The position numbers were made by a program, and so were the translations under genes. The notes beneath the pieces are model-generated. The model was not told the origin of the DNA, did not search any database, and saw only the letters and a program-made list of their open reading frames with translations. Source: Bacillota bacterium (GTDB taxonomy: Bacteria; Bacillota; Sulfobacillia; JAJZIM01). Taken from it: a DNA stretch of 64,000 bases. The stretch lies in assembly GCA_021810565.1 (NCBI GenBank), contig JAJZIM010000007.1, forward strand, positions 1 to 64,000, read 5' to 3'. Numbering within the stretch: position 1 is the stretch's first letter; every line of letters starts with the position of its first letter. Shown one piece after another: positions 25,764 through 62,652 of this stretch.

Positions 25764-25765
25764 GC

Positions 25766-26215: not shown

Positions 26216-26221
26216 TGGGCA

Positions 26222-26665: not shown

Positions 26666-26668
26666 CTA

Positions 26669-28243: not shown

Positions 28244-28244
28244 C

Positions 28245-29282: not shown

Positions 29283-29306
29283 TTTATCCCCTCTCCCCCT
29301 GCCGTA

Positions 29307-30347: not shown

Positions 30348-30360
30348 CCTAAGCCACCTC

Positions 30361-31035
30361 CTAGGTGTGCGAAGCCTCCGCGGCCTGCTTCTCGTCCTCC
30401 AGGGCTTCCTCGATGTTGTCCCACGCCAGCTCCACCAGGAAGGGGTTGGTCGCCTCCACCCGGTCCATGGCGCCGGACAGCTTCCAGATGTCCAGAAGCT
30501 CCTTGATCACATGCGCCGGCACCGCCCAGGAGCGGTCGATGGGCATGAGTCCCGGGATCCCCAACTCCGCCCGCCATTCCTTCTTGTGCTTGGACATCTC
30601 CGCCACCCGCGGACCCCAGTCCGGGAAGAAATCGGGGGCGATCATGTCCGGCGACAGCTGGTTGCCCACGGTGAGGATGGTCTTCAGGATGCGGGTGTAC
30701 TTCTCCAGGGCCTCCTTGGCCCAGCCCTTTTCCACCGCGATGTCCCGCAGGATCATCACCAAATCGGCCGCGGAGTTGCCCCGCGGGCAGCGGAACTTGC
30801 AGGAGCAGCACTGGGCGCAATACCAGATCTTGTTCTCCAGCCAGTTGCGCAGCTCCGCCTCGTCCGCCCGTCCCGTGGCCTCCACCACTTCCCGCGGGTT
30901 GTAGTCGTAGAACTGCCCCGCCGGGCACAAGGACTCGCAGGTTCCGCAGGAGAGGCAGCCCTGATAGGCATCCTCGAAGCGGGGATCCTGGGTCATGCGC
31001 TCGTACACCTTCAAGTCGCCGAAATCGATGGCCAT
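30361..31035 (-). CDS. hdrC1: sHdr subunit C1 (HdrC-like ferredoxin)
   Basis: 224 residues with two 4Fe-4S motifs, CLSCGTCESLCP and CAQCCSCKFRCP, near the N-terminus, and a long helical C-terminal part (KTILTVGNQLSPDMIAP). ATG has AAGGAG upstream. The gene order C1-B1-A-C2-B2 fits sHdr loci of sulfur oxidisers, but no separate small gene lies between hdrA and hdrC2. Confidence 0.9.
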   Translation of the reverse strand: MAIDFGDLKVYERMTQDPRFEDAYQGCLSCGTCESLCPAGQFYDYNPREVVEATGRADEAELRNWLENKIWYCAQCCSCKFRCPRGNSAADLVMILRDIAVEKGWAKEALEKYTRILKTILTVGNQLSPDMIAPDFFPDWGPRVAEMSKHKKEWRAELGIPGLMPIDRSWAVPAHVIKELLDIWKLSGAMDRVEATNPFLVELAWDNIEEALEDEKQAAEASHT

Positions 31036-31059
31036 TCGCTCTACTCCTTCCTTGGCAGC

Positions 31060-31425
31060 CTAAAAGAACATGGCCGCGTCGACCTCCAGGATGAGGTCGT
31101 TCAGCGTCGCTGCGCCCACCACCTCCACTTCGGGAATTAAATCCGCCGCGGTCAGATCGGCCTGATCCATGCTCTGGGCGCAGACCATGAACTTGGCCCC
31201 GGCCGCCAAGGCGTCGTCCATGAAATCCTTGATGGTCTTGGGGCTGTCGGATTTGATGCGCAGGGTCTCCGCCACGCCCTTCTTCAGCGTCGTCGCCCCG
31301 TGGATGGTGAAAAACACGATGGCCTCCATGTCCATGGCCCTGGCCACACTAGCCATAAAGAGGGGGGTAGCCAACCTGCCCGGGGTATCCACCCCGCTGG
31401 TTTGCACGTACAGCATCTTGCTCAT
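31060..31425 (-). CDS. DsrE-family sulfur carrier (DsrE3-like)
   Basis: 121 residues with the DsrE fold. A single cysteine at position 82 (AKFMVCAQSMD) is in the place of the sulfur-binding cysteine of DsrE-type proteins. It lies between tusA and hdrC1, where DsrE3 proteins of sHdr loci occur. It likely passes sulfane sulfur between TusA and the sHdr/LbpA system in the cytoplasm. Confidence 0.85.
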   Translation of the reverse strand: MSKMLYVQTSGVDTPGRLATPLFMASVARAMDMEAIVFFTIHGATTLKKGVAETLRIKSDSPKTIKDFMDDALAAGAKFMVCAQSMDQADLTAADLIPEVEVVGAATLNDLILEVDAAMFF

Positions 31426-31479
31426 CTTTCCGCTCTCCTTCCGTTTTGGGTACTCCGAGGTACTCCGCTGGTTCTGTCT

Positions 31480-31710
31480 CTACTTTACCTTCTTGACGTA
31501 GAACAGCAACTTGCCGCCGGCCTCGCCGGTCTCCACCAGCTCGTTGCCCGTGCGCTTGCACCAAGCCGGAATGTCCGCCTTGGCGCCGGCATCGGTGGCG
31601 ATTACTTCTAAAACCTGCCCCGTCGCCATCTTCTCTACGGCACCCTTGGTCTTGAGGATCGGCACCGGGCAGCAAAGCCCGGAGGTGTCCAGGGTCTGAT
31701 CCGCCTTCAT
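31480..31710 (-). CDS. tusA: TusA-family sulfur carrier
   Basis: 76 residues, starting MKADQTLDTSGLCCPVPILK. The CPxP motif at 14-17 contains the persulfide cysteine, preceded by a second cysteine at 13. It is the usual TusA length. ATG 31710 has AGGTGAGG upstream. It is the first gene of the sHdr transcription unit and a donor or acceptor for the neighbouring DsrE3. Confidence 0.92.
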   Translation of the reverse strand: MKADQTLDTSGLCCPVPILKTKGAVEKMATGQVLEVIATDAGAKADIPAWCKRTGNELVETGEAGGKLLFYVKKVK

Positions 31711-31801
31711 CTTCCGCCTCACCTCCCCCCATCGGTACAAGTTGGTGACTACCTCGGTTCGGCAAGGAGAGGGAGTGGGACAAGCCGGCTCCCCCAAAGC
31801 T

Positions 31802-31821
31802 GCCGGGGGCGAACCCCCGGC
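31802..31821 (-). promoter_or_regulatory. strong hairpin in the leader of tusA-sHdr operon
   Basis: Minus strand GCCGGGGG-TTCG-CCCCCGGC, an 8-bp perfect stem with a UUCG loop, about 90 bases before the tusA start. No U-tract follows, so termination is unlikely. It may stabilise or regulate the sHdr mRNA. No known riboswitch class was recognised. Confidence 0.5.
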
Positions 31822-31867
31822 CAATATCGCCGCGGCTGGGCGCCGCAAATCCCTCCGGACGCACAAG

Positions 31868-31893
31868 AAGCCCCCGTCAACGTTTGGGGGCTT
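31868..31893 (-). terminator. hairpin at the end of the Com-like gene
   Basis: AAGCCCCC / GGGGGCTT stem with a ten-base loop. It contains the stop codon of the upstream Com-like gene and is followed by CTTG. It could separate that unit from the sHdr operon. Confidence 0.5.
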
Positions 31894-32073
31894 CGAGAGC
31901 CTCAAGAAAGTGGTTCACGGTCTTGCAACGGGGACACTTGATCTCCAGGTAGGACAGGCAGACTTTGAAGCAGGACACGAAGTCCTCTGCTTCCGCCTCG
32001 ATGCTCCTCGCGCCGTCGAAGATCCCGAGGAGTTTTCGGCAACCCTGGCACCGCAGCTCCGTTTTCCGCTCAC
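31877..32073 (-). pseudogene. Com-like zinc-ribbon protein with apparent frameshift at its start
   Basis: The frame from 32056 to 31877 encodes LRCQGCRKLLGIFDG, then a cysteine pair and LEIKCPRCKTVNHF, a pattern shared with Com-type zinc-ribbon regulators (Mu Com). In this frame there is only CTG, not ATG/GTG/TTG, before a stop. A GTG at 32073 with GAGAGG upstream would start it if the AAAA run near 32064 had one more base. It is either a CTG start, a one-base sequencing error or a fresh frameshift. It has a good promoter at 32121-32149. Confidence 0.6.
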
Positions 32074-32120
32074 CTGCCTCTCGGCATGCTCGTAGAAGGC
32101 CACGACCAGCTTATGGGGGT

Positions 32121-32149
32121 ATTATAGCACCCATATGCATTAATGCGAA
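32121..32149 (-). promoter_or_regulatory. promoter of the Com-like gene
   Basis: TTCGCA (32149-32144), a 17-base spacer, and consensus TATAAT (32126-32121). It might also serve the sHdr operon by read-through. Confidence 0.6.
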
Positions 32150-32175
32150 TACTCCTTTTGAACCGTCTTGCGCCC

Positions 32176-33417
32176 CTAGTCGGCCGGAGCCTTCTTGACC
32201 ACCTTGGGAGCCGGCCGGCCGAAGCCCCAGATCCGCTCGGCGACCCACTCGTCCAGCCGAGTCCCGAACCACACCCCCGGGAATAGCCCCACGGAGAATA
32301 GCATCCCCGACATGTCCAAGCGCACGGCGAAGCTGTCCGACCAGGCCGCGATGTTGCAGCCCAGGGCGACCGAGGCCCCGAAGCCCATGATCATGCCGCC
32401 GACCAGGTACCACAGCAACTTGGAAGGCTTGCCGGGCACCCGCAGCCGGAACTCCCCGGCGATCTTGGAGGAGATGAAGGCACCCAGGATGGTGATGGGG
32501 ATGAACAGCCACAGCCCCAGGGCCACATAGCCCAAGTGGTGGCCGTAGTGGGGGTAGCTGAACTGGTTCAGGTCCAGGGGGGTCAGCCGGGAGAGAACCT
32601 GTCCGTGCACGACGCCCTGGGTGAACCAAGGGGAAGAAACCAGGTTGAGGCCAAAGGGCTGGGTGATGAAATTCACCAGCCAGGCGATGGTCAGGGTGTT
32701 GGGGGTGTTGACGCTCATGGACACCCCCTCCGCCAGGGTGACGTAGACCACGGTCATCACCGCCAAGGCCACCGCCCCCGCGTAAGGGTGCCACGGCTGC
32801 TTCAATGAGAAGGTGAAGCGCTTCTCCTTGTACTGGGCGGCCTTCTTCTGGGGCAGGAAGCGACGCAGGTACACGGCCAGGAGGATCAAAAGCCCGCCGG
32901 AGATGATCCCCCAAGCCAGGGGAGGGAGCCCCAGGGCTCCCCAGATGGTGATGGCCTTGGTGGCCGCCACCGCCGGCGCCTCCACCTGCTGGTAGAAAAA
33001 CAGGGCGAAGACGATGCCTCCCAAACCGGCCCCGATGAACTCCATCCAGTTGGCCACGTAGCCGGATCCCGATCGGAACAGCTGGCCCGAGGCGCAGGCG
33101 CCGCACATGGCGATGCCGACCCCGAACAGGAAGCCGCCCACCACCGTGAACCACCCCTGATGGTCGATGGCCGGCTGCACGATGCCGAACTGGGTCAGCA
33201 CCGACATGAGCACCGCCGAGATCCCGAGGAACAGGAACACGCCCTGCAGGATCCATGGATTGCGAAATTCCATGGTTTCCTGAAAGGCCGTGGTGAAGCA
33301 GAAGCGGCTGCGCTCCAGGACGATCCCGAAGAGGATCCCCAGGATCAGGAAGATGGCCACTATGGCCCAGCCGGGAATGAAGCTCGGCAGGTTGGACAGG
33401 AAGCTCAAGTTATACAC
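32176..33417 (-). CDS. YeeE/YedE (TsuA-type) sulfur-compound transporter
   Basis: 413 residues with about 10 membrane helices. Conserved cysteines lie in RSRFCFTTAF, AMCGACASGQLFR and ALGCNIAAW, the hallmark of YeeE/YedE channels that import thiosulfate or related sulfane sulfur. It is directly downstream of a TusA-like gene, as in yeeE-yeeD pairs. GTG 33417 is chosen with GAGGTAAGG upstream; TTG 33408 is possible. The likely job is sulfur entry for the sHdr pathway. Confidence 0.9.
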   Translation of the reverse strand: MYNLSFLSNLPSFIPGWAIVAIFLILGILFGIVLERSRFCFTTAFQETMEFRNPWILQGVFLFLGISAVLMSVLTQFGIVQPAIDHQGWFTVVGGFLFGVGIAMCGACASGQLFRSGSGYVANWMEFIGAGLGGIVFALFFYQQVEAPAVAATKAITIWGALGLPPLAWGIISGGLLILLAVYLRRFLPQKKAAQYKEKRFTFSLKQPWHPYAGAVALAVMTVVYVTLAEGVSMSVNTPNTLTIAWLVNFITQPFGLNLVSSPWFTQGVVHGQVLSRLTPLDLNQFSYPHYGHHLGYVALGLWLFIPITILGAFISSKIAGEFRLRVPGKPSKLLWYLVGGMIMGFGASVALGCNIAAWSDSFAVRLDMSGMLFSVGLFPGVWFGTRLDEWVAERIWGFGRPAPKVVKKAPAD

Positions 33418-33439
33418 CCCTTACCTCGATGTGTCTTGG

Positions 33440-33706
33440 CTAGCGCGAGGTCTTCTTCACCTTGATGCGCCAGTAGTCCCCCTCCTTCTCCAGGACGTAG
33501 GGCCAGTTGTTCTCCGCGCAGATCCCCGGCACCGTCTCCTCCGCCGCCGGGGGGTGATCGATGAGGATCTCCAAGACATGGCCCACCGGCATCCGCTTCA
33601 GCTTCTTCTGGGAGTGCAGCGCCGGGAAGGGGCAAGTCTCCCCCCGCACGTCGAAGACCTCATCCGGTTCCGTGTTCTTCAGTTCCTCCAATGCATCCGC
33701 CACCAT
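33440..33706 (-). CDS. TusA-like sulfurtransferase (second copy)
   Basis: 88 residues with VRGETCPFPALHSQKKL; the CPxP cysteine is residue 25. Compared with the copy at 31480 it has a longer N-terminus and a CFP variant. It corresponds to YeeD, the partner that takes sulfur from YeeE. The start codon is ATG 33706 or GTG 33703. Confidence 0.88.
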   Translation of the reverse strand: MVADALEELKNTEPDEVFDVRGETCPFPALHSQKKLKRMPVGHVLEILIDHPPAAEETVPGICAENNWPYVLEKEGDYWRIKVKKTSR

Positions 33707-33735
33707 GCATCCTCCTCTCTAAAATGCGACCGGTG

Positions 33736-34047
33736 TCAGGCGCACGACACGAGTCTGCCCGCGGCGAGGATCAGATCCACCACCGCGGGGTAGTCCACCT
33801 GCCGCACGTTCGGAACCAGTTTCTGCGCGATCCCCCGGGCCAGGACATCGGCCTCGACGGCGTAGAAGGTGCCGGGCAACTGCGCGAAGTGCTCCTGCGG
33901 TTTGGAGCCCGCCACCAGGTTGTACACCGCGTCGGCATAGCACAGGATCGCCACCTCTTCCTCCGCCGCCAACTCCCGGACTACTTCCCCCAGACTGGTG
34001 AGGGCCTGGGCCTCATCCGGCGCCTTGGAAGTGACCACCAGCGTCAT
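33736..34047 (-). CDS. DsrE/DsrH-like small protein
   Basis: 103 residues beginning MTLVVTSKAPDEAQAL. The pattern VAILCYADAVYNLVAG resembles TusB/DsrH and DsrE-fold subunits. One cysteine lies mid-chain and one near the end (VSCA). It lies with two other DsrE-fold genes, so a heteromeric TusBCD-like complex is possible. Confidence 0.72.
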   Translation of the reverse strand: MTLVVTSKAPDEAQALTSLGEVVRELAAEEEVAILCYADAVYNLVAGSKPQEHFAQLPGTFYAVEADVLARGIAQKLVPNVRQVDYPAVVDLILAAGRLVSCA

Positions 34048-34063
34048 CGTATTCCCCCCGTCT

Positions 34064-34420
34064 TCAAAAGCCGACGATCAGCTCGTGCGCTCGGAGGATC
34101 TTGCCCAAGTCACTGCGGCTGATGGGCTCCACGAAGTCGGCCAAGTCCGCGTCGGACAGGCCGCGCTCCTGGGCGTCCTCGCGCACCAGCTTGGGCGTGA
34201 TCTCGCAGTCCACCACCTCGTCGATGAACAGCTGCATGGACGGTCGTCCCACCCGCTCCGGGTCCACGCCCCGCACGGCGTTGAACACCCCGTCCCCCAA
34301 CAGCACGATGGTGGCCGCCACGTCGGCCACATACAGGCCCAGGGACACGCGGAAAGCCTCGAAGGAATCCTTGGAGCCCACGGGCGGCTTGCGCACCAGG
34401 ATACAGATCTTGTCAGCCAT
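34064..34420 (-). CDS. DsrE/DsrF-family protein
   Basis: 118 residues, with KICILVRKPPVGSKDSFEAF and ATIVLLGDGVFNAVRG, as in the DsrE/DsrF fold. It has a single cysteine (VVDCEITPKL) in the usual active-site region. GAGGAGGGGG precedes the ATG. It is the middle gene of a three-DsrE run. Confidence 0.8.
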   Translation of the reverse strand: MADKICILVRKPPVGSKDSFEAFRVSLGLYVADVAATIVLLGDGVFNAVRGVDPERVGRPSMQLFIDEVVDCEITPKLVREDAQERGLSDADLADFVEPISRSDLGKILRAHELIVGF

Positions 34421-34432
34421 CGCTCCCCCTCC

Positions 34433-34834
34433 TCACGGTATCAGAAACAGCGTGCGGTCGGAGTCGTAGACCAAGGCTCCGAACTTGGAGGTGCTGGAGA
34501 TCACCGCCCCCGGTATGAGATCCTCCTGATCCAAATTGCGCTCCTCGCTGGAGCGCGAGCACACCCCCAGCTTCAAGGGACTTTCCCCCGTGGCCGGATC
34601 CCGGGTCTTTTCCATGAACTCGGCCAACTCCCGGGTCAGCGGTTTGATGTCGGCGTGCTTCACGTCCTCCAGGAAGGAGGCGGCATGGAACACCCCGTCC
34701 GCCAGGCCGAAGATCGTCACCTCGTGCCCCTTGCCCACCGCCGCCTTGGCCACCTCGAGGGCGAAGCGGCCGTGCTCGGTGTGCTCGGGAGCGGTGAAGA
34801 CCAGGATCGTGAGTTTTCCCAAGGCGAACTTCAT
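34433..34834 (-). CDS. DsrE-family protein
   Basis: 133 residues starting MKFALGKLTILVFTAPEHTE. The DsrE fold shows in VTIFGLADGVFHAASF, with one cysteine at PLKLGVCSRSSEERN. The ATG overlaps the cytochrome gene stop (ATGA), linking the DsrE genes to the membrane redox gene in one unit. Confidence 0.8.
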   Translation of the reverse strand: MKFALGKLTILVFTAPEHTEHGRFALEVAKAAVGKGHEVTIFGLADGVFHAASFLEDVKHADIKPLTRELAEFMEKTRDPATGESPLKLGVCSRSSEERNLDQEDLIPGAVISSTSKFGALVYDSDRTLFLIP

Positions 34835-48991: not shown

Positions 48992-49035
48992 TGGTGGGCG
49001 GTAGAGGACTGGAACCTCTGTCCTCATGCATGTCA
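48992..49035 (-). pseudogene. 3' fragment of a tRNA-Val(GAC) gene
   Basis: 44 bases match the 3' half (anticodon loop to CCA) of the intact tRNA-Val(GAC) at 49226-49302, with two differences. The 5' half is absent. It probably marks the former end of an element integrated at this tRNA gene. The 150 bases up to the tRNA terminator hold no gene. Confidence 0.7.
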
Positions 49036-49186
49036 CTCTCGTTCACGCGCCCCGGCCACTTCGGAAACCCGCTGTTTCCCAGGCTCCACGGGCATCCGAG
49101 GGGGCTTTTAGGATGGACGTGGCGCTATCTTGGCCCTTGGTTACATCAAGTTCACACTAAAATAAAAATACCCTCCGGCGTGGAAC

Positions 49187-49211
49187 AAAAAAGCCGCAAA
49201 CCCTTGCGGCT
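49187..49211 (-). terminator. terminator of the tRNA operon
   Basis: AGCCGCAA-GGG-TTTGCGGCT then TTTTTTG on the minus strand. Confidence 0.85.
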
Positions 49212-49225
49212 CTATGCTTCCTTGA

Positions 49226-49302
49226 TGGTGGGCGGTAGAGGACTTGAACCTCTGACCTCATGCATGTCAAGCATGCGCTCTAACCACCTGAGCTAACCAC
49301 CC
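49226..49302 (-). tRNA. tRNA-Val(GAC)
   Basis: Cloverleaf complete with acceptor GGGTGGT/ACCGCCC, anticodon stem CATGC/GCATG and loop TTGACAT (GAC anticodon), and encoded CCA. Last gene of the five-tRNA operon. Confidence 0.92.
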
Positions 49303-49571: not shown

Positions 49572-49649
49572 TGGCGGAGGCGACGGGATTCGAACCCGCG
49601 ATCTTGTGCGTGACAGGCACATATGTTAGACCAGCTACACCACGCCTCC
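49572..49649 (-). tRNA. tRNA-Asp(GTC)
   Basis: Acceptor GGAGGCG/CGCCTCC, anticodon loop CTGTCAC (GTC), T-arm CGGGTTCGAATCCCG, encoded CCA. First gene of the operon. Confidence 0.93.
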
Positions 49650-49727: not shown

Positions 49728-49749
49728 GAGCCGCCGATGCCCGCGGCTC
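49728..49749 (-). terminator. hairpin behind the tRNA-Val(TAC) remnant
   Basis: GAGCCGC/GCGGCTC stem, followed by TCTTCC on the minus strand. It is probably the terminator of the original tRNA-Val(TAC) gene, kept outside the integrated element. Confidence 0.5.
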
Positions 49750-49760
49750 TAAGCTTTCCT

Positions 49761-49807
49761 TGGTGGGCGAAGCAGGTGTCGAACCTGCCACCTCTCGCTT
49801 GTAAGGC
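49761..49807 (-). mobile_element. attachment-site remnant: 3' half of tRNA-Val(TAC)
   Basis: On the minus strand GCCTTACAAGCGAGAGG leads into a T-arm GCAGGTTCGACACCTGC, then TTCGCCCACCA: the anticodon loop to CCA of a tRNA-Val(TAC). The 5' half is missing (no GGGCGAA upstream, anticodon stem 5' side does not match). This is the usual scar of tRNA-directed integration; the intact gene should be at the far end of the element. Confidence 0.8.
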
Positions 49808-52787: not shown

Positions 52788-53108
52788 TTAGCGCATCAGG
52801 TTGGCCAGGAACTCTTTGGCTGCGCGTGGCAAAGAGTCATCTTGGTTCCCGCCCACTTCGGGGCCAGGCTTCGGCCCAGCGGCTGCCGGATGGCCTGTTC
52901 CCATCGTTCCCATGTCCTCTATCCGACTGGCAAGGCCCCGCAGCTCCCCCCGCAGGACCTCCAGCCGTTCCAGCACCTCGGCTTGTCCCCCCGGCAGCAG
53001 GTAGGCCCGAAGCGCCCGGCGGACGAACTCCCCCGTGGCCCCCCGGGGCAACCGTTCCAGTGCCTCCTCCAGCTCGGGGTCCGTGACCTTCACCCGGATG
53101 TAGCGCAC
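52788..53108 (-). CDS. ParR-like ribbon-helix-helix adaptor
   Basis: 106 residues. N-terminal strand-helix-helix (YIRVKVTDPELEEALERL then TGEFVRRALRAYLL) resembles ribbon-helix-helix DNA-binding proteins. Next comes a helical segment and a C-terminus ending PRAAKEFLANLMR, which could contact ParM. It is located next to parM with a repeat-rich gap between, matching type II segregation operons. GTG 53108 has GAGGAGG upstream. Assignment is contextual. Confidence 0.65.
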   Translation of the reverse strand: MRYIRVKVTDPELEEALERLPRGATGEFVRRALRAYLLPGGQAEVLERLEVLRGELRGLASRIEDMGTMGTGHPAAAGPKPGPEVGGNQDDSLPRAAKEFLANLMR

Positions 53109-53419: not shown

Positions 53420-54502
53420 TCACCGCGCAAGCTGCGTAGCCACCACGGCAAACCCCTTGGCGTTGGCCATCTGGGACATCGGCAGCACCGTCACCGGCCG
53501 GCCCAGCCGCTCCGTGAGGAGGTTCCCCAGCAGCGTACCGCCACCCCCCATGACCAGAATCGGCTGCAGGATGTCCAGGCGGTCCCGCCACTTGGTCCGC
53601 AGTCCCTCGTACACCGTCGTGGCCACCTCCTGGCATGCCTCCGCCAGGGCTTTGGACAGGTCCACGGACCTCCCCCGCCACCACGCCTGGGTGTTGCCGG
53701 AGGCCACCACGCCCTCGGCCAGCTCCAGGGGCAGTTCCCCCCCGGTGGCGGCGTGATACGCCTCGGCCACCAGTGCCGCTATCCTGTGGGTGCCCACCTC
53801 CAGGCTGCCGGACATGCCCTCGGCTATGTTGCGGGTTCTCAGGTCCAGAATCATGTAGTCGGTGGTGCCGTAGCCGATGTCCACCACTCCCGCCTCCGTG
53901 GCTCCCTCTCCCAGCACATTGCCCGGTATGCTGAGCGCATGGAAGATGCCCCCAGCCGCTTGTGGGAACACCCGGGCGGCAGCGATCCGGACGGACACCA
54001 CCCCCGGGAAGGGGCCGTCCTCGAACTCCACGTCCGCCTGGAAGCCCCGGAGCAACTCCTCCGCCGCCGCCCTGGACTTCTGATTGAAATGCCCCGGGGG
54101 ATCCCCGGTGGCCACCGCCAAGGAGGCGCTGGTGCCGCCGGAAGCCAGGGCGGCTGCCACCGCCAACAGTACCCGGGCGCCCTCATGCCGCCAGCGGTCC
54201 TGGTCGAGGGGCACTCCCGTGCCCCCGCCCCCCTCCAACCGGGCGAGGCTGCCTACGGCGTAGCGCCCCCGAGCGCTCGGGCCAGCCATCGTCACCCGGA
54301 AGCCATCCCGCAGTCTACCGTTGGGGGTCTCTCCGTCGCCGGTGAGGATGCTGGCCAGCCCCGAGGAGCGCATGAGCCGGGTGGTCAACGCGGGGAACAC
54401 GACCTCGCCTCCGGGACCCACCGCCTTCACGTAGCCGTAACCCAGATCGATGCCTACCGGGATCAGTTTCGCCCCCACAGGCTCGTTGCCGGTTGCGATC
54501 AT
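53420..54502 (-). CDS. parM: actin-like ParM/StbA family ATPase
   Basis: 360 residues. Phosphate-1 motif GIDLGYGYVKAV, phosphate-2 VVDIGYGTTDYMILD and adenosine motif PILVMGGGGTLLGN give an actin-fold ATPase of the ParM/StbA type. These polymers push plasmid copies apart. ATG 54502 is favoured by AAAGGAG nine bases upstream. The upstream region has an array of 11-bp repeats. It is unusual on a chromosomally integrated element. Confidence 0.87.
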   Translation of the reverse strand: MIATGNEPVGAKLIPVGIDLGYGYVKAVGPGGEVVFPALTTRLMRSSGLASILTGDGETPNGRLRDGFRVTMAGPSARGRYAVGSLARLEGGGGTGVPLDQDRWRHEGARVLLAVAAALASGGTSASLAVATGDPPGHFNQKSRAAAEELLRGFQADVEFEDGPFPGVVSVRIAAARVFPQAAGGIFHALSIPGNVLGEGATEAGVVDIGYGTTDYMILDLRTRNIAEGMSGSLEVGTHRIAALVAEAYHAATGGELPLELAEGVVASGNTQAWWRGRSVDLSKALAEACQEVATTVYEGLRTKWRDRLDILQPILVMGGGGTLLGNLLTERLGRPVTVLPMSQMANAKGFAVVATQLAR

Positions 54503-54547
54503 CCTGCCCATCTCCTTTTAATGGTTAACATGGAATTGGAAACAGCC

Positions 54548-54625
54548 GGTTCCAAGGTGGTTCTAGACGTGGTTCTAAGGCGGTTCTAATCCGAGTTTCC
54601 TTAGCGGTTCTAAGGTGGTTCTAAT
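54548..54625. repeat. helically phased GGTTCTA repeat array upstream of parM
   Basis: Six copies of GGTTC(T/C)A start at 54548, 54559, 54571, 54582, 54606 and 54617, with spacings of 11, 12, 11, 24 and 11 bases, one helical turn apart. It overlaps the 3' end of the gene at 54610 and lies 45 bases before parM. A protein-binding array (operator or centromere) is likely. Confidence 0.7.
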
Positions 54626-55356
54626 ACCGCCTGATCACCGACCGCCCCCCCTTTTGCGGCGTGCTTCCGCCGGGTATGCGGGCGGCGCGGCTTGCGAATT
54701 GGCAATTTGGCCGCCGCGAGCGCCCCCCGAAGCAGTGCCTGGGCTCCTTTCTGGGCGTATGACACTTGGGGCAGGACCAGCATCCCGGGGGCGGTTGTGG
54801 TGGGGGGCGACGCTCCGGGCAATGCCCTAATGCGGCTCGCCAAAGAAACAGCCTGGGGCCGGGATATGTGCAGCCACTGCTGCAGCAGTCGGGAGGAGTA
54901 CATTCCCCCGTGCTCCAGCACGGCGTTGATGGCGGTGGCGAAGAGGGGATCCGTCTGCGCCTCCTCCAGCCACGCCGGTCGGGGCGTGGTGACGGCTTCT
55001 ATCGCCGTGCGGATCTCCTCCCCGGGGATGGTCAATTTCCCCTCATCATTGGGCCGCGGGTACACCACTGCCCCGCCCAGGGCCCCCGCCACGGTGGCCA
55101 GCGTTCCGGCGTCCGGGGTGGGGTAGGCCAGGGCCACCAGTCCGCAGCCCTCCGCGTACACCTGGGCCAGCGGCGCGTAGGCCGCCTTCTCAATGCCCGC
55201 GGCCACCACCACGGCGGCGGGCTTTTCCCGGAACACCAGGGCCACCAGGTCCGGCACGGACGGGCTATTGGGCGTCACCACCTCATAGCCGTTGGCCGCA
55301 AGCCCGCGTTCCAGCGGGGGGAGCCGATCTTCCGGGGCCAGCACGGCAATCTTCAA
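54610..55356 (-). CDS. element protein with Rossmann-like N-terminus, unknown function
   Basis: 248 residues. Residues 1-85 begin MKIAVLAPEDRLPPLERGLA and look like a receiver or Rossmann-type sheet/helix repeat (AAVVVAAGIEKAAYAPLA). A helical segment (RLLQQWLHISRPQAVSLASR) could be a winged helix. The C-terminus is strongly basic (RKPRRPHTRRKHAAK). TTG 55356 has GGGAGG upstream. It lies between the translocase and parM, and may be a DNA-binding accessory factor. Confidence 0.65.
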   Translation of the reverse strand: MKIAVLAPEDRLPPLERGLAANGYEVVTPNSPSVPDLVALVFREKPAAVVVAAGIEKAAYAPLAQVYAEGCGLVALAYPTPDAGTLATVAGALGGAVVYPRPNDEGKLTIPGEEIRTAIEAVTTPRPAWLEEAQTDPLFATAINAVLEHGGMYSSRLLQQWLHISRPQAVSLASRIRALPGASPPTTTAPGMLVLPQVSYAQKGAQALLRGALAAAKLPIRKPRRPHTRRKHAAKGGAVGDQAVLEPP

Positions 55357-55359
55357 CCT

Positions 55360-57672
55360 CTACACCTCCCAGTCGTCGTCAGGGAAAGCCCCTGGGTTGT
55401 TGGTCCTCCCGGCCCCCCAGGGATCCGGGGGGGCGCCACGCGGATCTCGCGGTTCCTCGATACCAAAGATCGGGCCGGGGTTCGGGTCATGGGCGATGCA
55501 CCATTGGACCACGGCCCGGATCTCGTCCTCCGTCACCCAACCTGACTGAACTCGGACAGGCTCCTGGGCGCCGATGGGCTTCCAAAGGCCGTCCCCCTTG
55601 CCCGCCAGAAGCTCCGCGCCGGGTTCGTCCAAGGCCACGCTGCTTTCTGCCTGCGTCCCAACCGCGAAGGCCATGCGACTGGGCAGGTTCCCTCTGAGTA
55701 GCGTTGGCACGGCGTCCACGGTTGGCTTCTGGGTGGCCGCCACAAGATGTATCCCCGCTGCCCGGCCAAGCTGTGCTATCCGGGTAAGCGTATTGTCCAA
55801 CTCCGCCAGGGCTTCTTTCCCCAGGTATTGCTGGGTGGACAACCGTAGGTCGTAGAGCTCGTCCACGTGCAGCACGATCCGGGGCCACTCCTGCCCCAGG
55901 TGTGAAGTGTTATAGCTGCCAATGTTCTGGTTCTGAGCCGCCGCCAGGGCGGTGTAGCGCCGATCCATCTCCCGGGCCACCTTCTGTACGGCCTCCAGGG
56001 CAGCGGCTGGTTCCACGGCGGGCGGCATGGCCAGGTGCGGTAGGCCTGCCAGGAACGGGGCCAGGTCCACCCGCTTGGGATCAACAACCACCATACGTAA
56101 CTCTCGGGGGGTGTAACGGCAGATCAGCCCCACGATGTACCCACCCGAGAAGACTGACTTGCCGCTGCCGGTCGTGCCTGCTACCAAGAGGTGCGGCGCC
56201 ACGGCCAAGTCCGCCACCGTAGGCTGCCCGGAGGCATCCGCCCCCATAGGAATCAGCAGATCCCCCTGGACCCCCGGCAAGGCGGCCAACAAGGAGCGTA
56301 GCGCCACCACCTCCCGGTGCGGCCGAACCACCTCAGCGAGAAGCCCCTTTTGCTCAAACCGCAAGCCGGTCAACGCCCCGCCGGAGGCCACCATCAAATT
56401 GCCCGCCATGGATACCACGCGGGACGCCGGGACACCCCGCGGGTACTGCAGGCGCAGGCGCACAACGGTAGGCCCCACCCCGGCCACGGATACCCTGACC
56501 CCCTCAACCCCGAAGGATTGAATGGCGTCCGCCAAAACGCGGGCCAGGCGCTCCCCCTCCGCCCGTCTGCCTCGGCCACGCTTGGGGGCCGCAAGCAGCG
56601 ACAATGGCGGGCCGTCCGGGCGCAGCGCCTCCGGCTCCGGGTAGGGTACGGCTTCTGGTTCCTCGTTGACGACGGGTGCCACCTCGGGGATGGTGTCGCG
56701 AACCCTGACCACCAGGAAATCCGCGTTGACGGCAAGCTCGAATACCATGCCTTCCGGGAGGGCCGGGGGTGGGGCCAGGGACTTGAGCATGCCGGCATCG
56801 TTGATCAGCTGCCGCCAGAGCCGGTGGATGTTGTGGGAGTCGCCCCGGTACTGCGCCTCATCCTCCCGCGGCGTGTCCGGGACCAGCCAGGTCTCGAACA
56901 GCACGCCCCCCTGGGGCTCCTGGGTGCGCCACTTGAGTCCGGCCATGATGGTGACCGTGGTTTGGGCCGTGCCGCCGTTGGGGGTGTTTCGCGTGAAGGT
57001 CTTGCGCACTTGCCCGCCGGAACGGTCCATGTAGGCCGTGCCCTCCCGGGTGAGTTGCTTGATCCACCGCTTGGCCGCCCTTGTGGCCACCTTCCGCCGC
57101 GCCGCCGCCTCCTGGGCGCGAACAAATTCTTGGGACCATCTTTCCAACCGGGCAAGCCACTCGGGCTCAGCCTCTTTGGCCAACCCGAGCAGCAGGGCCA
57201 GCCTGCGCTTCAAGAGGTGCCACCAGCCATGGGGCATGTTCCGCACCCGTTGCTTCGCTTCGGGCGAGACGTCGGCGACGGCCGGCACGGCAGACGAAGG
57301 CCCGGCACCGCCTTCGGGCGCACGGGGGGCACGGGGGATCCGCATGGGCAACGGGGCGGCCACGCAGTCCCCCTCCTGTTGCGGCTCCGTACCACGGGGC
57401 CAGATGTCAGGGGCCTCCGGCCTTTTCAGCGCACGCCGAAGCAGGGGGCGCCAATAGGCCTGGCGCTCCCTGTTGTATAACTGCCAGTAGACCGGATTTT
57501 CGATGATCCCATGCGCCCATTGGACGATCTGGAAGATCTCCCGGCTGCCGCCCTGGTCGGGATGGGTCAACCGCAGGGCGCGCCTGACGGCGGCCTTCGC
57601 TTCCTCCTGTGAGCAGTGCGGCGGCAGGCGGAGCAGCTTGTGGAGATCGTAATCGGGGCGGTAGATGTTCAT
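55360..57672 (-). CDS. J-domain-FtsK/SpoIIIE-type DNA translocase fusion
   Basis: 770 residues. Residues 7-72 form a J domain: LHKLLRLPPHCSQEEAKAAV, the HPD motif at 37-39 and AHGIIENPVYWQLYNRER. A linker of about 300 residues follows. Residues 375-470 match the FtsK alpha domain (FGVEGVRVSVAG, GPTVVRLRLQ). The motor has Walker A GTTGSGKS (499-506), Walker B IVLHVDE (599-605) and LVAATQKPTVDAV. No winged-helix gamma domain is seen. It probably moves element DNA during conjugative transfer. Confidence 0.88.
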   Translation of the reverse strand: MNIYRPDYDLHKLLRLPPHCSQEEAKAAVRRALRLTHPDQGGSREIFQIVQWAHGIIENPVYWQLYNRERQAYWRPLLRRALKRPEAPDIWPRGTEPQQEGDCVAAPLPMRIPRAPRAPEGGAGPSSAVPAVADVSPEAKQRVRNMPHGWWHLLKRRLALLLGLAKEAEPEWLARLERWSQEFVRAQEAAARRKVATRAAKRWIKQLTREGTAYMDRSGGQVRKTFTRNTPNGGTAQTTVTIMAGLKWRTQEPQGGVLFETWLVPDTPREDEAQYRGDSHNIHRLWRQLINDAGMLKSLAPPPALPEGMVFELAVNADFLVVRVRDTIPEVAPVVNEEPEAVPYPEPEALRPDGPPLSLLAAPKRGRGRRAEGERLARVLADAIQSFGVEGVRVSVAGVGPTVVRLRLQYPRGVPASRVVSMAGNLMVASGGALTGLRFEQKGLLAEVVRPHREVVALRSLLAALPGVQGDLLIPMGADASGQPTVADLAVAPHLLVAGTTGSGKSVFSGGYIVGLICRYTPRELRMVVVDPKRVDLAPFLAGLPHLAMPPAVEPAAALEAVQKVAREMDRRYTALAAAQNQNIGSYNTSHLGQEWPRIVLHVDELYDLRLSTQQYLGKEALAELDNTLTRIAQLGRAAGIHLVAATQKPTVDAVPTLLRGNLPSRMAFAVGTQAESSVALDEPGAELLAGKGDGLWKPIGAQEPVRVQSGWVTEDEIRAVVQWCIAHDPNPGPIFGIEEPRDPRGAPPDPWGAGRTNNPGAFPDDDWEV

Positions 57673-58448
57673 GCGGCAGCCCCCACCAGCACCAGCAGTA
57701 CCCCCAGCATGACGACGCCCAGGTCAAACAGATATTCCCACCCCGTCCCCGTCGTGAACAGGGGCAGGATGCGGAAGTGCCGTCTTGTAATCGGCCAGAA
57801 GTAGGCCGCCCCCTCCCGGTTGAGCCCGTCGGCCAGGTCATGGAGGATCATCCCCCCGCCTATCCCCAGGGCCAGGGGAAGCAGCGCGGCTCCCGCCCCC
57901 CCGTACAGGAGGCCGGCCAGGAATCCGCCGCCGATGCTGGCGGGGCGCAGCCGGATCCGCAGTCGCAGGCTCCGACCTAGCCGAAGCGCCCCCAGCGTCC
58001 GGTTGGGCGACACCCCCACGGCCTTCAGCCCCTGCGCGAGAAGCGCCCCCACCACGGCGAACAGGACCGCATACCCGATCCCGTTTCCCACCAACAGGGC
58101 GGTGGCCGCCGGTGCGCCGTGGCCCACGAGGTATCGGTACACCGGCATGGCCAGTATGGCATCGAACAGCCGTCCCCCCAGGTACAACCCGGTGGCGGCC
58201 AGCCCCGCCGCGGCGATGCTGTGGGTCGGTCCCCGGTGCCCCAATTTCGCCAGCCCTTCGGCGGCCACGGCCTCCGTGATTCCGGTCCTCGCGGCGTAGG
58301 AGCCCTGCTTATCCAAATCCGGCAGCAGGGTTCCCACCGCCAGGCCGGCGCACGCCGGCAGCAGGACGGTCGGGGGCAGCTGGGGGGCGCGGAGGATCAG
58401 CGCCTCCGCGGCCACCAGCCCCGTCAGGAAGTGCGTTCTGCCCAACAT
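57669..58448 (-). CDS. YdjM-like membrane metal-dependent hydrolase
   Basis: 259 residues. Conserved MLGRTHFLTGLVAAE, LPDLDKQGS, HRGPTHSIAAAG and GGMILHDLADGLN supply the histidine/aspartate set of the LexA-regulated YdjM family, with about seven membrane segments. ATG 58448 has AGGGGAGG seven bases upstream. It is a cargo or accessory gene; the substrate is unknown. Confidence 0.85.
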   Translation of the reverse strand: MLGRTHFLTGLVAAEALILRAPQLPPTVLLPACAGLAVGTLLPDLDKQGSYAARTGITEAVAAEGLAKLGHRGPTHSIAAAGLAATGLYLGGRLFDAILAMPVYRYLVGHGAPAATALLVGNGIGYAVLFAVVGALLAQGLKAVGVSPNRTLGALRLGRSLRLRIRLRPASIGGGFLAGLLYGGAGAALLPLALGIGGGMILHDLADGLNREGAAYFWPITRRHFRILPLFTTGTGWEYLFDLGVVMLGVLLVLVGAAA

Positions 58449-58618
58449 TCCATGGCCTCCCCTCCATTTAAGGTGAGGTACAGGGTGTCTTGCCGCCGCA
58501 GCCACTCCCGGAATTCCCCGACGGAACCGCGGAAGTGGTACTCCGCCGACAGGGTCCGCCGCAAGAGCTCCGTGGCGTCCGTAAGTCCGGCGCCCCTGTC
58601 CCGCTCCTTCGGCATCAT
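58424..58618 (-). CDS. small element protein, unknown
   Basis: 64 residues, largely polar with VGEFREWLRRQDTLYLTLN. ATG overlaps the upstream stop (ATGA) and the 3' end overlaps YdjM by 25 bases, a tight operon arrangement. No family recognised. Confidence 0.55.
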   Translation of the reverse strand: MMPKERDRGAGLTDATELLRRTLSAEYHFRGSVGEFREWLRRQDTLYLTLNGGEAMECWAERTS

Positions 58619-59247
58619 GACTCGTCTCCCACGATGCCCAGGGCATCGGCGGCTTGGCGCACCCCGCGCAGGGCGGCGGCCACATCCGGAGCGCCGCCCC
58701 CCAACGCCCGCAGCGCCCGGGCAATCCCGGAGCGCACCCCGTCCATCGGATCATCGATGGCACGCATGAGCGGGAGCCGCCCGCCGCTGGCCATCCCCAG
58801 CGGTCCGTCATCCTCCTCCTCCGACCGGCAGCCGCCCATTCCCGCATAGCCGATGGAGTCGGCGAGCTCGCCGCCGTGCTCGTCCTCGATCCAGGCACGA
58901 ATTTTACAGAGGCCGCAGGAGGCGCACTCCTGCATGATGACGCGGTATCCATCGGCGCAGGTGGAGCGGATTTCACGCCACTCGTGCCCCACCACGGCGT
59001 CCATCGGGCAGGGCGGCTCCTTGGGGTCGGCCTGGACGTCCATCCAGTCCGGGCGCCCGCCGCCCGCCTCCCGGAGCTCCACGTGCACCATGATGGACTG
59101 GGACGCCCCCAGGGTGCCGGCCCATTCCAGGGCCAGGTCGAACGCCGCCATGCGGGCGGCCCGCAAATCCGCTGCCTCCACGTGGGTATGGCAGAACACT
59201 CTCCCGGGCACTCCTGCCGTCGTCATGCGCACCATGTAACTGGGCAT
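58615..59247 (-). CDS. element protein with cysteine cluster, unknown
   Basis: 210 residues. The N-terminal half resembles a small alpha/beta domain (FCHTHVEAADLRAARM), the middle has CSSTC-like CASCGLCKIRAW, and the C-terminus is acidic then helical. GAGGAGGAG precedes the ATG. A metal-binding site is possible. No function assigned. Confidence 0.6.
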   Translation of the reverse strand: MPSYMVRMTTAGVPGRVFCHTHVEAADLRAARMAAFDLALEWAGTLGASQSIMVHVELREAGGGRPDWMDVQADPKEPPCPMDAVVGHEWREIRSTCADGYRVIMQECASCGLCKIRAWIEDEHGGELADSIGYAGMGGCRSEEEDDGPLGMASGGRLPLMRAIDDPMDGVRSGIARALRALGGGAPDVAAALRGVRQAADALGIVGDES

Positions 59248-59591: not shown

Positions 59592-59861
59592 TCACAGACC
59601 TCCAATTCCCTGGCCGCGAATCTCGTCAGCAACGAGGCACCGTTTGCCGTTGCGCGTCTCGATTGATCCGCGGACCTCCACCACGAAACCCTTGGCGAGG
59701 TGCTCAGCGCACTTTTCAGCAAGGAGCCCGGTTGAACAGATCCGGATACGCTCCCCGCCGCCCTTGCCCGTCGTTACTAGGGAGAACTTTCCCAGTGGGG
59801 TGCCGGCACCCGTGTACCACAACTCGGGGTCCGCCGCGAGTCTGCCGATTACCACGGCCAT
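59592..59861 (-). CDS. single-stranded DNA-binding protein (SSB-like OB fold)
   Basis: 89 residues starting MAVVIGRLAADPELWYTGAG, with GTPLGKFSLVT and FVVEVRGSIETRNGKRCL, the OB-fold pattern of SSB. The acidic C-terminal tip of chromosomal SSB is absent. AAGGAGG precedes the ATG, which overlaps the upstream stop. Likely protects element ssDNA during transfer or replication. Confidence 0.85.
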   Translation of the reverse strand: MAVVIGRLAADPELWYTGAGTPLGKFSLVTTGKGGGERIRICSTGLLAEKCAEHLAKGFVVEVRGSIETRNGKRCLVADEIRGQGIGGL

Positions 59862-60094
59862 CAATCTGAACCTCCTTCCAACTGGGCTTCGACCCGATAC
59901 AGCATCGTCAGCACCGTCTCCGCCTCGCTGGCCTCCAGGTCCTCAAGCCGCGTCCAGTGATCCCCTATGGCGCAGTCGCACCAGTCGTGCACGTCTTCCA
60001 GGCTCCACGAAATGTAGTCCATCACGCCTCGGATTGCCTGCAGTTCCTCCCGGGTGGTCATCCGGGCCTCCGGCTCCTGCTCCAGCACCGCCAT
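59861..60094 (-). CDS. small element protein, unknown; first gene of leftward operon
   Basis: 77 residues with an acidic, tryptophan-containing segment (DYISWSLEDVHDWCDC). It follows a good ribosome site and lies 62 bases downstream of the -10 at 60156-60161. No family recognised. Confidence 0.6.
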   Translation of the reverse strand: MAVLEQEPEARMTTREELQAIRGVMDYISWSLEDVHDWCDCAIGDHWTRLEDLEASEAETVLTMLYRVEAQLEGGSD

Positions 60095-60652: not shown

Positions 60653-60681
60653 GGCCAGGACTAATCCTGGCCCTGTTTTTT
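60653..60681 (+). terminator. terminator of the XRE gene
   Basis: GGCCAGGA-CTAA-TCCTGGCC then CTGTTTTTT on the plus strand. It overlaps the end of the convergent VirB4-like gene. Confidence 0.85.
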
Positions 60682-62652
60682 GCGCGTTTCGTACAGCGCC
60701 ATCTCCTCGGGCGGCAGGTGCAGCTTCAGGTAGTCCCACCCACCCTTGTACCGCAGGGCGAACTGGTTGGTTCCCTTGGAGCTGCGCAGCCTGGCGATCA
60801 CCTCGTCCGGCACGTCGCCATGTTCCTGGATCGCCCGGAAGCTCGAATCCTCCAGCCAGAACAGCACCTTCAAATCGGTGTTGTCCCACAACCAACCCCC
60901 GTATTGCGTCTCCCACAACACCTGGGGGACGTTGGTGGCCACGATTGCGGCCCCGTTCCATTTTCGAATGGTGGTGGCCCACGTGGCGATCAGATGCGCC
61001 ATGCGGGAGGAGGACAGCTGCCGCTGGCCCTCGTCCCACTCCACCAGGGCATAGCGGCGCTGCTCCATCCGCACGCGGATGAGCTGGTTCATGAGGGCGT
61101 CCCCGAGGAGCAGGGTCTTGACCGCGCCGGCGGTCTGGTCGTCGTTCGAGTCCGCCAGGGAGGCCACGTGGAACACCGTCCAGTCGGCCTGGATCATTTG
61201 GCGCTCCTCCAGCCGTGTGCCAAACAGCCCCGCCATGTCACCCTCGAAGAACCGCCAGATGCGGCCGTTCTCCCCCGCCAACCTGGCGGCCATGCCCCTC
61301 GGGTCGGCCTCCGCCCACCGGGCCAATGTCTCGTACCACTGGCGGACGCCCGGCCATGCACGGGCGGGCACCCGGTCCCACGCCTTGGGGTCCTCCCGGT
61401 CGATCCCCGCGTCCTCGAAGATCTGAAACGCGGCGCGGATTGCCGCGTTCGTCTCTCCCGGGTGCACGTCCACGGATCCCGCCATGACCTCCACCATGGC
61501 GCCGATCTTGGCGAATATGCGCCGCATTCGGGAGCCGTTCCAGGCGTGGATCTCCTCCACCTGCTCCCGGCTGGCACCGTGGGGCGGCTGCAGGGGTTCG
61601 GGGCATGCCAGTGGTTCGAAGTAGTTGCCGCTGTTCATCGTCATGTCCACCACCCGGGCGCCCACGCGCCGGGCATGCGGCAAGTATTCCCCGTCCACAT
61701 CGAAAGTGACGGCCACGTCCCCCTCGATCAGGGCACCGGAGACCATGCTGTGCAGCAGCACGGACTTTCCCTCGCCCGTCGCCCCGGCCGCCACCATGTT
61801 CTTGTTCTTCACCCGGCCACCCATGTCCAAAAATGTGAACCGCCCGTCCTGGGCACGGTTGCCCATCGCGATGCCTATGCCGTCGGAACACGCTCCCCCT
61901 GCGGATCCCGTCCAGAGGGCCGTGGCCGCCGTGGCGGTGGCCAGCATGCCCCGACCCGGGCGTGTGATCCGCTCCGCCCGCCCCAAGAAGGTGGACGGGG
62001 GGGCCCCGAACCACGTCTCCTGAAACGCCTGGAGCTGTTCGTGATCGAGCATGACCAGGGTGGCGCGATCCCGCCACGCCCGCTCCAGTTCCGCGCAGGC
62101 CGCCTCCAGGTCCTCCTGGCCGGCCGCCGACACCACGAAGAACATCCAGATGTCGATGGGGGTCTGCCCCGCACGGCGCACGGCGTCCCACAGCATGTGC
62201 ATGCTGCGCAGGGTGCGCTCCTCCTGTGGAGTGGGCATGCCACCGCTCCGTTGCGCCTGGGCGATGGACATGCGCACCCGGCGCATGCGCATCTGGTAAA
62301 ACTGCCCCAGGCGCACTCTGGGATTGGGTGCGCACCGCACCACAACCCGCAGGTTGAACCGGGGCGGACGCCCGCCAAGGGAAATCGGTGAGGGGTTCAG
62401 CAAGGCGCTGGTACCCATCTCGCCGGGGACGACCTCCTGCAGGCCACCGCTCAGGGCATAGACCCGGATGCAGGTGTCCGCCGCCGTGCGCAGCATGTCC
62501 GCATGGTGCTCCACCCGCCCGATGGGGGCGAGCCACGCCCGCACCGCTTCCCCCGGCACGTAGTCCTCTGTGGGGCCACTGGCAGGCCTTGGATCGGGCA
62601 GGGACACCCGGGGCCGGGAATGCTCCCGCCGGGGCAGGAAAGACAGATTCAT
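60661..62652 (-). CDS. VirB4-like conjugation ATPase
   Basis: 663 residues. N-terminal half has the VirB4-type alpha/beta region. Walker A GATGEGKSVLL is at 290-300 and Walker B is RYALVEWDEGQ near residue 540, followed by a VirB4/ConE-type segment (IRKWNGAAIVATNVPQVL). AGGAGGGC precedes the ATG. It likely powers the type IV secretion channel. Other channel genes (VirB1/VirB6-like) would lie beyond the window. Confidence 0.87.
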   Translation of the reverse strand: MNLSFLPRREHSRPRVSLPDPRPASGPTEDYVPGEAVRAWLAPIGRVEHHADMLRTAADTCIRVYALSGGLQEVVPGEMGTSALLNPSPISLGGRPPRFNLRVVVRCAPNPRVRLGQFYQMRMRRVRMSIAQAQRSGGMPTPQEERTLRSMHMLWDAVRRAGQTPIDIWMFFVVSAAGQEDLEAACAELERAWRDRATLVMLDHEQLQAFQETWFGAPPSTFLGRAERITRPGRGMLATATAATALWTGSAGGACSDGIGIAMGNRAQDGRFTFLDMGGRVKNKNMVAAGATGEGKSVLLHSMVSGALIEGDVAVTFDVDGEYLPHARRVGARVVDMTMNSGNYFEPLACPEPLQPPHGASREQVEEIHAWNGSRMRRIFAKIGAMVEVMAGSVDVHPGETNAAIRAAFQIFEDAGIDREDPKAWDRVPARAWPGVRQWYETLARWAEADPRGMAARLAGENGRIWRFFEGDMAGLFGTRLEERQMIQADWTVFHVASLADSNDDQTAGAVKTLLLGDALMNQLIRVRMEQRRYALVEWDEGQRQLSSSRMAHLIATWATTIRKWNGAAIVATNVPQVLWETQYGGWLWDNTDLKVLFWLEDSSFRAIQEHGDVPDEVIARLRSSKGTNQFALRYKGGWDYLKLHLPPEEMALYETRKKQGQD

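Follow-up and report, generated by a model that had tools for sequence, protein, structure and literature searches.

A predicted J domain fused to an FtsK-type DNA motor on an integrative element of a Sulfobacillia bacterium

What would a mobile element do with a DNA motor that carries its own J domain? To our knowledge, how FtsK-type motors borne by such elements clear protein-covered DNA is largely an open question. The window analyzed here, the first 64,000 nucleotides of contig JAJZIM010000007.1 (C67 below) of a Bacillota bacterium of the class Sulfobacillia (assembly GCA_021810565.1, a draft of 115 contigs), contains a gene at 55360-57672 that raises it directly. An initial annotation proposed that this gene joins a J domain with an HPD tripeptide to a full FtsK alpha domain and a RecA-like motor with Walker A and B, that it lies on a mobile element, that no such fusion was known to have been described, pending a search, and that a link to DnaK could help remodel nucleoprotein complexes, relaxosomes or ParM filaments during transfer. 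The gene, here called J-FtsK, is an open reading frame (ORF) of 770 amino acids with an ATG start; its coordinates stood, and its strand is now established as minus, plus-strand frame 1 across the same positions having 10 stops.

On sequence and model evidence, the N-terminus of J-FtsK is a J domain fused to an FtsK motor, as had been proposed. Pfam DnaJ matched the single protein over residues 9-66 (E = 6.6e-5) with 23.4 bits, under the curated cut-off of 27.8 bits, and single-sequence searches with the J part gave weak matches to J-domain chains in the PDB (best E = 0.0028). A profile of residues 1-327 plus the corresponding part of a second copy, described below, matched 29 distinct PDB sequences at E values of at most 1, all of them J proteins by name (best E = 8.1e-4); RabJ, WBSCR18, TIM14 and mL77, which we take to be J proteins, are among them. 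Both copies contain the sequence HPDQGG, with the HPD that J-domain proteins carry between helices II and III. An AlphaFold2 model of residues 1-327, built on a two-row alignment (mean predicted local distance difference test [pLDDT] of 61.5), has helices in the J region at residues 6-13, 22-35, 44-57, and 60-82, with block pLDDT values of 53 to 78 over residues 11-70 and values below 50 at 1-8 and 44-46; a full-length AlphaFold model (mean pLDDT of 43) served only to note the J helices. Foldseek placed J-domain entries at ranks 1-2 and 5-18 (best probability, 1.00) and low-probability complex I subunits at ranks 3-4, with a best E value of 0.055 and no match at E ≤ 0.001. VIA-align returned J or J-like domains, recognized by title, by the PDB profile result or as known J proteins, in 14 of its 15 top rows (row 5, 7jtk_y, has an uninformative title), with Z scores for the J rows of 6.6 to 7.7, all below 8 and graded middling by the tool. 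The structure prediction proposed as a check thus supports a J helical fold at medium confidence. J-FtsK also keeps basic residues at what we take, from E. coli DnaJ numbering, to be the three DnaK-contact positions of helix II (K26, R30, and R31).

The C-terminal half has the alpha domain and the RecA-like beta motor of FtsK and SpoIIIE, again as annotated. The core carries the Walker A sequence GTTGSGKS and a Walker B that ends in DE, the motor matches a solved FtsK in the PDB with an E value of 6.1e-55 in a single-sequence search, and the host's own FtsK is 45% identical to J-FtsK over residues 349-724. FtsK proper differs in having an N-terminal transmembrane domain and a C-terminal gamma domain. 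By hydropathy alone, no 19-residue window of J-FtsK reaches 1.6 (maximum, 1.39), and no membrane helix is therefore predicted, while the host FtsK has four windows of at least 1.6; the J-FtsK chain has no Pfam FtsK_gamma match, a gamma-like region being present instead in the next gene. Between the J domain and linker on one side and the motor on the other lies an alpha/beta domain that FtsK lacks and that has no confident known fold. Its VIA-align rows were weak (Z = 5.4 to 6.2, phage tail terminators among them), and fold families missing from these rows are not taken as excluded; assignment as a phage tail terminator was dropped at Z scores of only 5.5 to 6.1.

The same genome encodes a second J-FtsK (contig C56:6860-9199) that is 53% identical, with the same domain order and HPD kept. 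Identity between the two is 38% over residues 9-66 (22/58), 64% over 67-80, 34 to 48% in the linker and middle domain, and 60 to 69% over residues 331-735. The paralog has one marginal hydropathy window, located inside the alpha domain. Third-position GC is 0.76 to 0.88 in all five segments of both genes, J part included.

Copies beyond these two were sought more widely. Of 154 genomes of the class and 398 sampled from the phylum, one each had a near-full-length match to the N-terminal profile, and this was the window's own genome (G000) both times; the two samples overlap, and this phylum is the only one sampled with that profile. Every other profile row covered a short J-domain stretch or, in one genome, a short stretch of the middle region. 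Of the 10,818 frames with 60 or more amino acids in 146 loci and the window, 29 had a J match (with a profile seeded by the two J-FtsKs), 118 had a motor match and 7 had both, and these 7 are copies of the two known genes. Whole J-FtsK gave 29 pattern matches in genome contigs, none confirmed as a relative. With the motor segment, 79 of the best 80 of 553 contig matches contained a motor frame and none joined J and motor, although 4 of the 79 are shorter than 600 amino acids and may miss their start. Outside G000, a set of 100 relatives consisted of motor-only matches and two short J-only rows (G086 and G037). Searches of viral contigs with J-FtsK, its N-terminal profile and the gamma-like profile gave pattern matches and no confirmed relative. 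J-FtsK matched 624 plasmid and 238 phage records, none over 80% of the protein, and its N-terminal part matched no phage record and two plasmid records, annotated as J-domain genes. No third copy of the fusion was thus found in these collections, and none was found in the open-access literature among the matches listed, in line with the annotation, to which no described fusion was known.

Where the fusion came from is suggested by its nearest motor. In a midpoint-rooted tree of 57 motors (32 belonging to the window's class and 25 taken from the contig search, chosen from 108 distinct), the two J-FtsKs are sisters (98/83) and form one clade (100/99) with protein P0003 of the single-contig genome G078. 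A long branch separates this clade from the remaining 54 motors, most of them FtsKs of the chromosomal type; the composition of the C56 row is atypical. P0003 has no J domain, and hydropathy points to a membrane segment at its N-terminus. The J domain thus probably took the place of a membrane anchor, a direction of change that we infer. The P0003 gene lies near SLT and VirB4-like genes, with CpaB-, TadB/C- and CpaF-like genes, read from translations, nearby. In G078, all PF02534 matches fall within a single, distant ORF of the genome, and a search for PF03432 relaxases found none there. A separate observation on the G078 element is a multi-gene module repeated nearly unchanged with a period of ~3.6 kb (L140:4184-13160).

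J-FtsK lies on an integrative element, which bears out its placement on mobile DNA. One end is a 65-bp direct repeat that includes the 3' end of tRNA-Val(TAC), and the other has an intact tRNA-Val(TAC) (C58:55533-55607) and a tyrosine integrase (C58:54229-55428); the 34-bp core of the repeat occurs at only these two places in the genome, allowing up to two mismatches. The element spans C67:49743-72357 and C58:1-55579, ~78 kb plus an assembly gap, and its integrase and flanking repeats at a tRNA gene are those of an integrative and conjugative element. Integration at tRNA-Asp (49572-49649) was rejected because the repeat belongs to tRNA-Val. A Pfam scan of 47 of the ~80 predicted ORFs identified a VirB4-like ATPase (NCBIfam VirB4-type matches are below cut-off), two SLT proteins, a CpaF-type T2SSE protein, SAF/RcpC and a TadZ-like CbiA protein; DNA polymerase A, a RecD-like helicase and a D5-like primase, all on C58, with a D5-like primase on C56 as well, and a single-strand DNA-binding protein; and an RNA ligase, a C5 methylase and two RRXRR proteins. 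Membrane J proteins that keep HPD are encoded at C58:9723-10526 (DnaJ E = 1.5e-14) and C56:12374-13243 (E = 7.6e-7). As side observations, mobile elements here (G000:C58 and L043) and in G078 (C1:1785000-1820000, partly from translations) combine Tad-pilus-like genes (CpaF-, CpaB-, and TadB/C-like) with a VirB4-like ATPase and SLT, and the RRXRR genes (C58:15106-16131 and 28453-29916; L146 and L145) are of the IscB type, one with a sub-cut-off HNH match.

A gene set is common to both contigs: J-FtsK, a gamma-like gene, short paired repeats and parM. The gamma-like gene directly follows each J-FtsK, and its products (248 and 217 amino acids) are 49% identical. A region of the window protein resembling the gamma winged helix aligned with ten hand-picked FtsK gamma domains in hhalign at 91% (E = 9.2e-7 for that single comparison), neither protein has a Pfam FtsK_gamma match, and no match was found in plasmid records. 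In 398 genomes, a two-member gamma-like profile had a single foreign match, located where the gamma domain would lie in an FtsK-like protein of genome G411 (E = 6.2e-4 per genome, which alone is not significant over so many genomes). The window repeats have an 11-bp period (70% matches; score, 57), and those of C56 form two pairs (9919-9990) as an exact 35-bp tandem copy; in a count of matches at lag 11, the best 44-column windows are the arrays of the two contigs (27 and 29 matches). The pattern built from these sites (3 found, 0 expected) shows only that they do not recur elsewhere in the window, and the repeat 10-mer alone was found 4 times there versus 1.75 expected, which is not significant. 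After the repeats comes parM in the window, and a weakly YdjM-like gene and then parM in C56, with a small ParR-like candidate next in both; this candidate has no Pfam family match above cut-off. Pfam places actin-like ParM proteins on both contigs, which upholds the ParM neighborhood initially noted, and NCBIfam ParM-type matches to the window protein are below cut-off. Just upstream of J-FtsK is a YdjM-like gene whose stop overlaps the J-FtsK start (ATGA). The proposal of relaxosome remodeling found no support: the relaxase families PF03432, PF02486, and PF08751, the three searched genome-wide, were not found in the genome, its VirD4-type PF02534 matches are on contigs C72, C23, and C53 and not on those with J-FtsK, and the motor instead stands beside the gamma-like gene, repeats and parM.

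Table 1. Positions in the 64,000-nucleotide window of J-FtsK, its parts and neighboring features of the element
Feature	Positions	Strand	Basis or remark
J-FtsK: J domain, linker, middle alpha/beta domain, FtsK alpha/beta motor	55360..57672	-	Pfam, profile, model
J domain, residues 9-66 (HPD at 37-39)	57475..57648	-	Pfam, profile, model
Middle alpha/beta domain, residues 195-327	56692..57090	-	AlphaFold2 block pLDDT 65-88
FtsK alpha domain, residues 355-428	56389..56610	-	Pfam FtsK_alpha, E 1.7e-5, above cut-off
FtsK/SpoIIIE motor core, residues 471-651	55720..56262	-	Pfam FtsK_SpoIIIE, E 9.8e-36
Separate 248-aa protein with FtsK-gamma-like region (~residues 134-180)	54610..55356	-	hhalign
Repeats, three pairs of ~11-bp units (transcribed strand TTAGAACCRCC-like)	54547..54624		Overlap end of gamma-like gene, before parM
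ParM/actin-like protein	53420..54511	-	Pfam ALP_N 3e-17, MreB-like_C 6e-25
Small ParR-like candidate after parM	52788..53108	-	Position and reading of sequence
YdjM-like membrane protein	57669..58448	-	Pfam 1.7e-17 on longer ORF 57669-58976; hydropathy
Single-strand DNA-binding protein	59592..59864	-	Pfam SSB 3.9e-8
VirB4-like ATPase	60661..62652	-	Pfam P-loop_TraG 3.3e-8
65-bp direct repeat with 3' end of tRNA-Val(TAC), one element end	49743..49807		Other copy C58:55515-55579

We tentatively favor the reading that J-FtsK is the double-stranded DNA motor of an integrative mobile element, recruits DnaK, and serves transfer or segregation. It would be kin of a membrane-anchored, element-borne FtsK-like motor whose anchor was exchanged for a J domain, with the gamma-like reader in a separate neighboring protein. 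The gamma-like protein (or ParR) would mark the element at the repeats before parM, and a soluble J-FtsK ring would load there and pump DNA to the element's VirB4/Tad-type apparatus or to a daughter cell. The J domain would recruit host DnaK, which could strip or remodel proteins on that DNA, much as DnaK and DnaJ remodel the initiation complexes of phages and plasmids. At the envelope, DnaK is perhaps presented by the element's membrane J protein. In its most specific form, which we consider doubtful, the motor would be a chaperone-coupled pump: an Hsp70-recruiting translocase drives the element, for which no relaxase was found, as double-stranded DNA through a channel in the envelope, and motor J and membrane J together make host DnaK a stripping or ratchet machine, by analogy with Hsp70 at the mitochondrial import channel.

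Known systems resemble J-FtsK in part. TraB of Streptomyces plasmids and actinomycete integrative and conjugative elements is an FtsK-like double-stranded DNA pump for transfer that recognizes 8-bp repeats, and TcpA of pCW3 resembles FtsK, as described in an excerpt of PMC12857230. The motor, gamma-like gene and repeats of the J-FtsK locus may correspond to the TraB-type plan of motor, sequence reader and cis-acting repeats, but the J domain, the split gamma-like protein and the VirB4/Tad-type genes are not part of that plan, and NCBIfam plasmid_TraB scores 50 bits against a cut-off of 800. J-FtsK was thus dropped as a member of TraB and, having no membrane domain and no gamma domain in its chain, of FtsK proper. 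Type IV coupling proteins link a substrate to a VirB4-type channel; what J-FtsK may share with them is its co-occurrence with VirB4, SLT, and Tad-like genes. ParMRC partition systems share the actin-like ParM, the small following gene and short direct repeats before parM; the J-FtsK gene set adds an FtsK-type motor and a gamma-like protein, and its ParR is only a candidate. Partition and transfer have been connected elsewhere: ParM of plasmid R1 binds TraD and TraC, and Par proteins promote transfer, according to an excerpt of PMC4949242. Other J-domain proteins, including the phage-encoded one treated in an excerpt of PMC3486835, likewise have a J domain with HPD, and J-FtsK differs from them in its fused DNA motor and in that no other DnaJ domain was matched.

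Several points weigh against the reading that we favor. Pfam DnaJ matched the paralog over only residues 12-47 with an E value of 0.091, and by the E. coli numbering used above, the paralog clearly keeps one of the three presumed DnaK-contact basic residues of helix II. C56, a 24-kb contig with two tyrosine recombinases, is at most a putative element, and its YdjM-like gene matches that family poorly (E = 0.043). Besides J-FtsK, it has no VirB4-sized ORF among its predicted ORFs (ten C56 proteins were scanned with Pfam), so the gene set goes with parM more closely than with any secretion machinery. The 35 kb read around P0003, itself a motor with no J domain, yielded no J protein, so a J domain is not needed for such motors generally. 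The lack of a relaxase or VirD4 gene may be only apparent, since either may sit in the gap between the two contigs over which the element is split. For the G411 gamma match, ~0.25 chance matches are expected over 398 genomes, and its support is its position. The evidence from the repeats is modest: the 35-bp tandem copy accounts for more of the C56 array than the 11-bp period does, the lag-11 control reached 26 matches elsewhere in the window part, and shorter windows tie or exceed elsewhere. The step from anchor to J domain, assembly as a hexamer, pumping, DnaK binding, repeat binding and transfer are all steps that we infer.

A rather unlikely alternative is that J-FtsK serves segregation and not transfer, keeping the excised, replicating element in daughter cells together with ParM, the ParR-like protein and parC-like repeats, while DnaK, recruited through the J domain, dismantles filaments or partition complexes. 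The presence of parM and short repeats beside both J-FtsKs, when VirB4 was seen beside one only, is consistent with this, as are the replication genes (D5-like primase on C56 and C58; DNA polymerase A and RecD-like helicase on C58). It fits poorly with the J-less G078 relative, which stands among secretion and pilus-like genes and near which no ParM was noticed among the predicted ORFs in 35 kb (read, with no profile search), and ParM systems normally need no FtsK-type motor.

It is distinctly unlikely that the J domain serves for docking independently of DnaK, pairing with, for example, the membrane J protein in the manner of Tim14 and Tim16, so that the motor regains membrane attachment. Each J-FtsK is accompanied by a gene for a membrane J protein, the motor has no membrane helix of its own, and 2guz_B, a chain of the Tim14-Tim16 complex that we take to be Tim16, is among the best VIA-align rows (Z = 7.3). 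Tim16-like domains have lost HPD, however, whereas the two J-FtsKs and the two membrane J proteins all retain the tripeptide.

Still less probable is action of the J domain on the host, in which it draws DnaK away, changing the heat-shock response or helping element proteins to fold, and the motor fusion serves only for delivery. Excerpts of two papers offer precedents: a phage J protein that interacts with DnaK also stabilizes sigma32 (PMC3486835), and the DnaJ domains of jumbo phages have a predicted role in folding and assembly (PMC7824862). For this, however, an unfused J protein would be enough, and the element already encodes one, and the fusion has been retained in two diverged motors. 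Finally, it is hardly credible that the J part is a chance resemblance or the gene an assembly chimera, as the sub-cut-off DnaJ score of the single protein and the fragmented draft genome might suggest, because the second, 53% identical copy with the same domain order on another contig, which excludes an assembly artefact and led us to reject a chimera or frameshift, is joined by profile and model evidence and a continuous coding signal.

Three further observations concern other parts of this genome. ARAGORN called a transfer-messenger RNA that overlaps tRNA-Val(GAC) at 48992-49289 of the window, in the tRNA array beside the element, and this call is possibly false. A 162-amino-acid J-domain protein is encoded on contig C24 (L141:1600-2088, minus strand) between argD-like and argB-like genes, as read from translations. 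At 22740-34834 of the window, lipoate-ligase and GcvH-like genes lie beside heterodisulfide-reductase-like and DsrE/TusA-like genes, and these translations are suggestive of an sHdr sulfur oxidation cluster.

In the polyomavirus large T antigen, an N-terminal J domain is joined to a ring helicase, and 1faf, at rank 48 of the VIA-align rows, is presumably its J domain. The likeness to J-FtsK lies in a J domain placed at the N-terminus of a DNA motor that a mobile genetic element encodes and that forms a ring, presumably in J-FtsK as well; it is that of a distant analog: large T antigen is a superfamily 3 helicase of animal viruses and not an FtsK, and the resemblance is presumably convergent. 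If our reading is true, J-FtsK would be a bacterial counterpart of this design. With a J domain wired to a DNA motor, Hsp70 help for DNA pumps becomes testable in one polypeptide via one tripeptide. The J-FtsK gene set would unite the motor and its recruiter of chaperones with a split DNA reader and a ParM gene, in elements where no relaxase of the three families searched was found.

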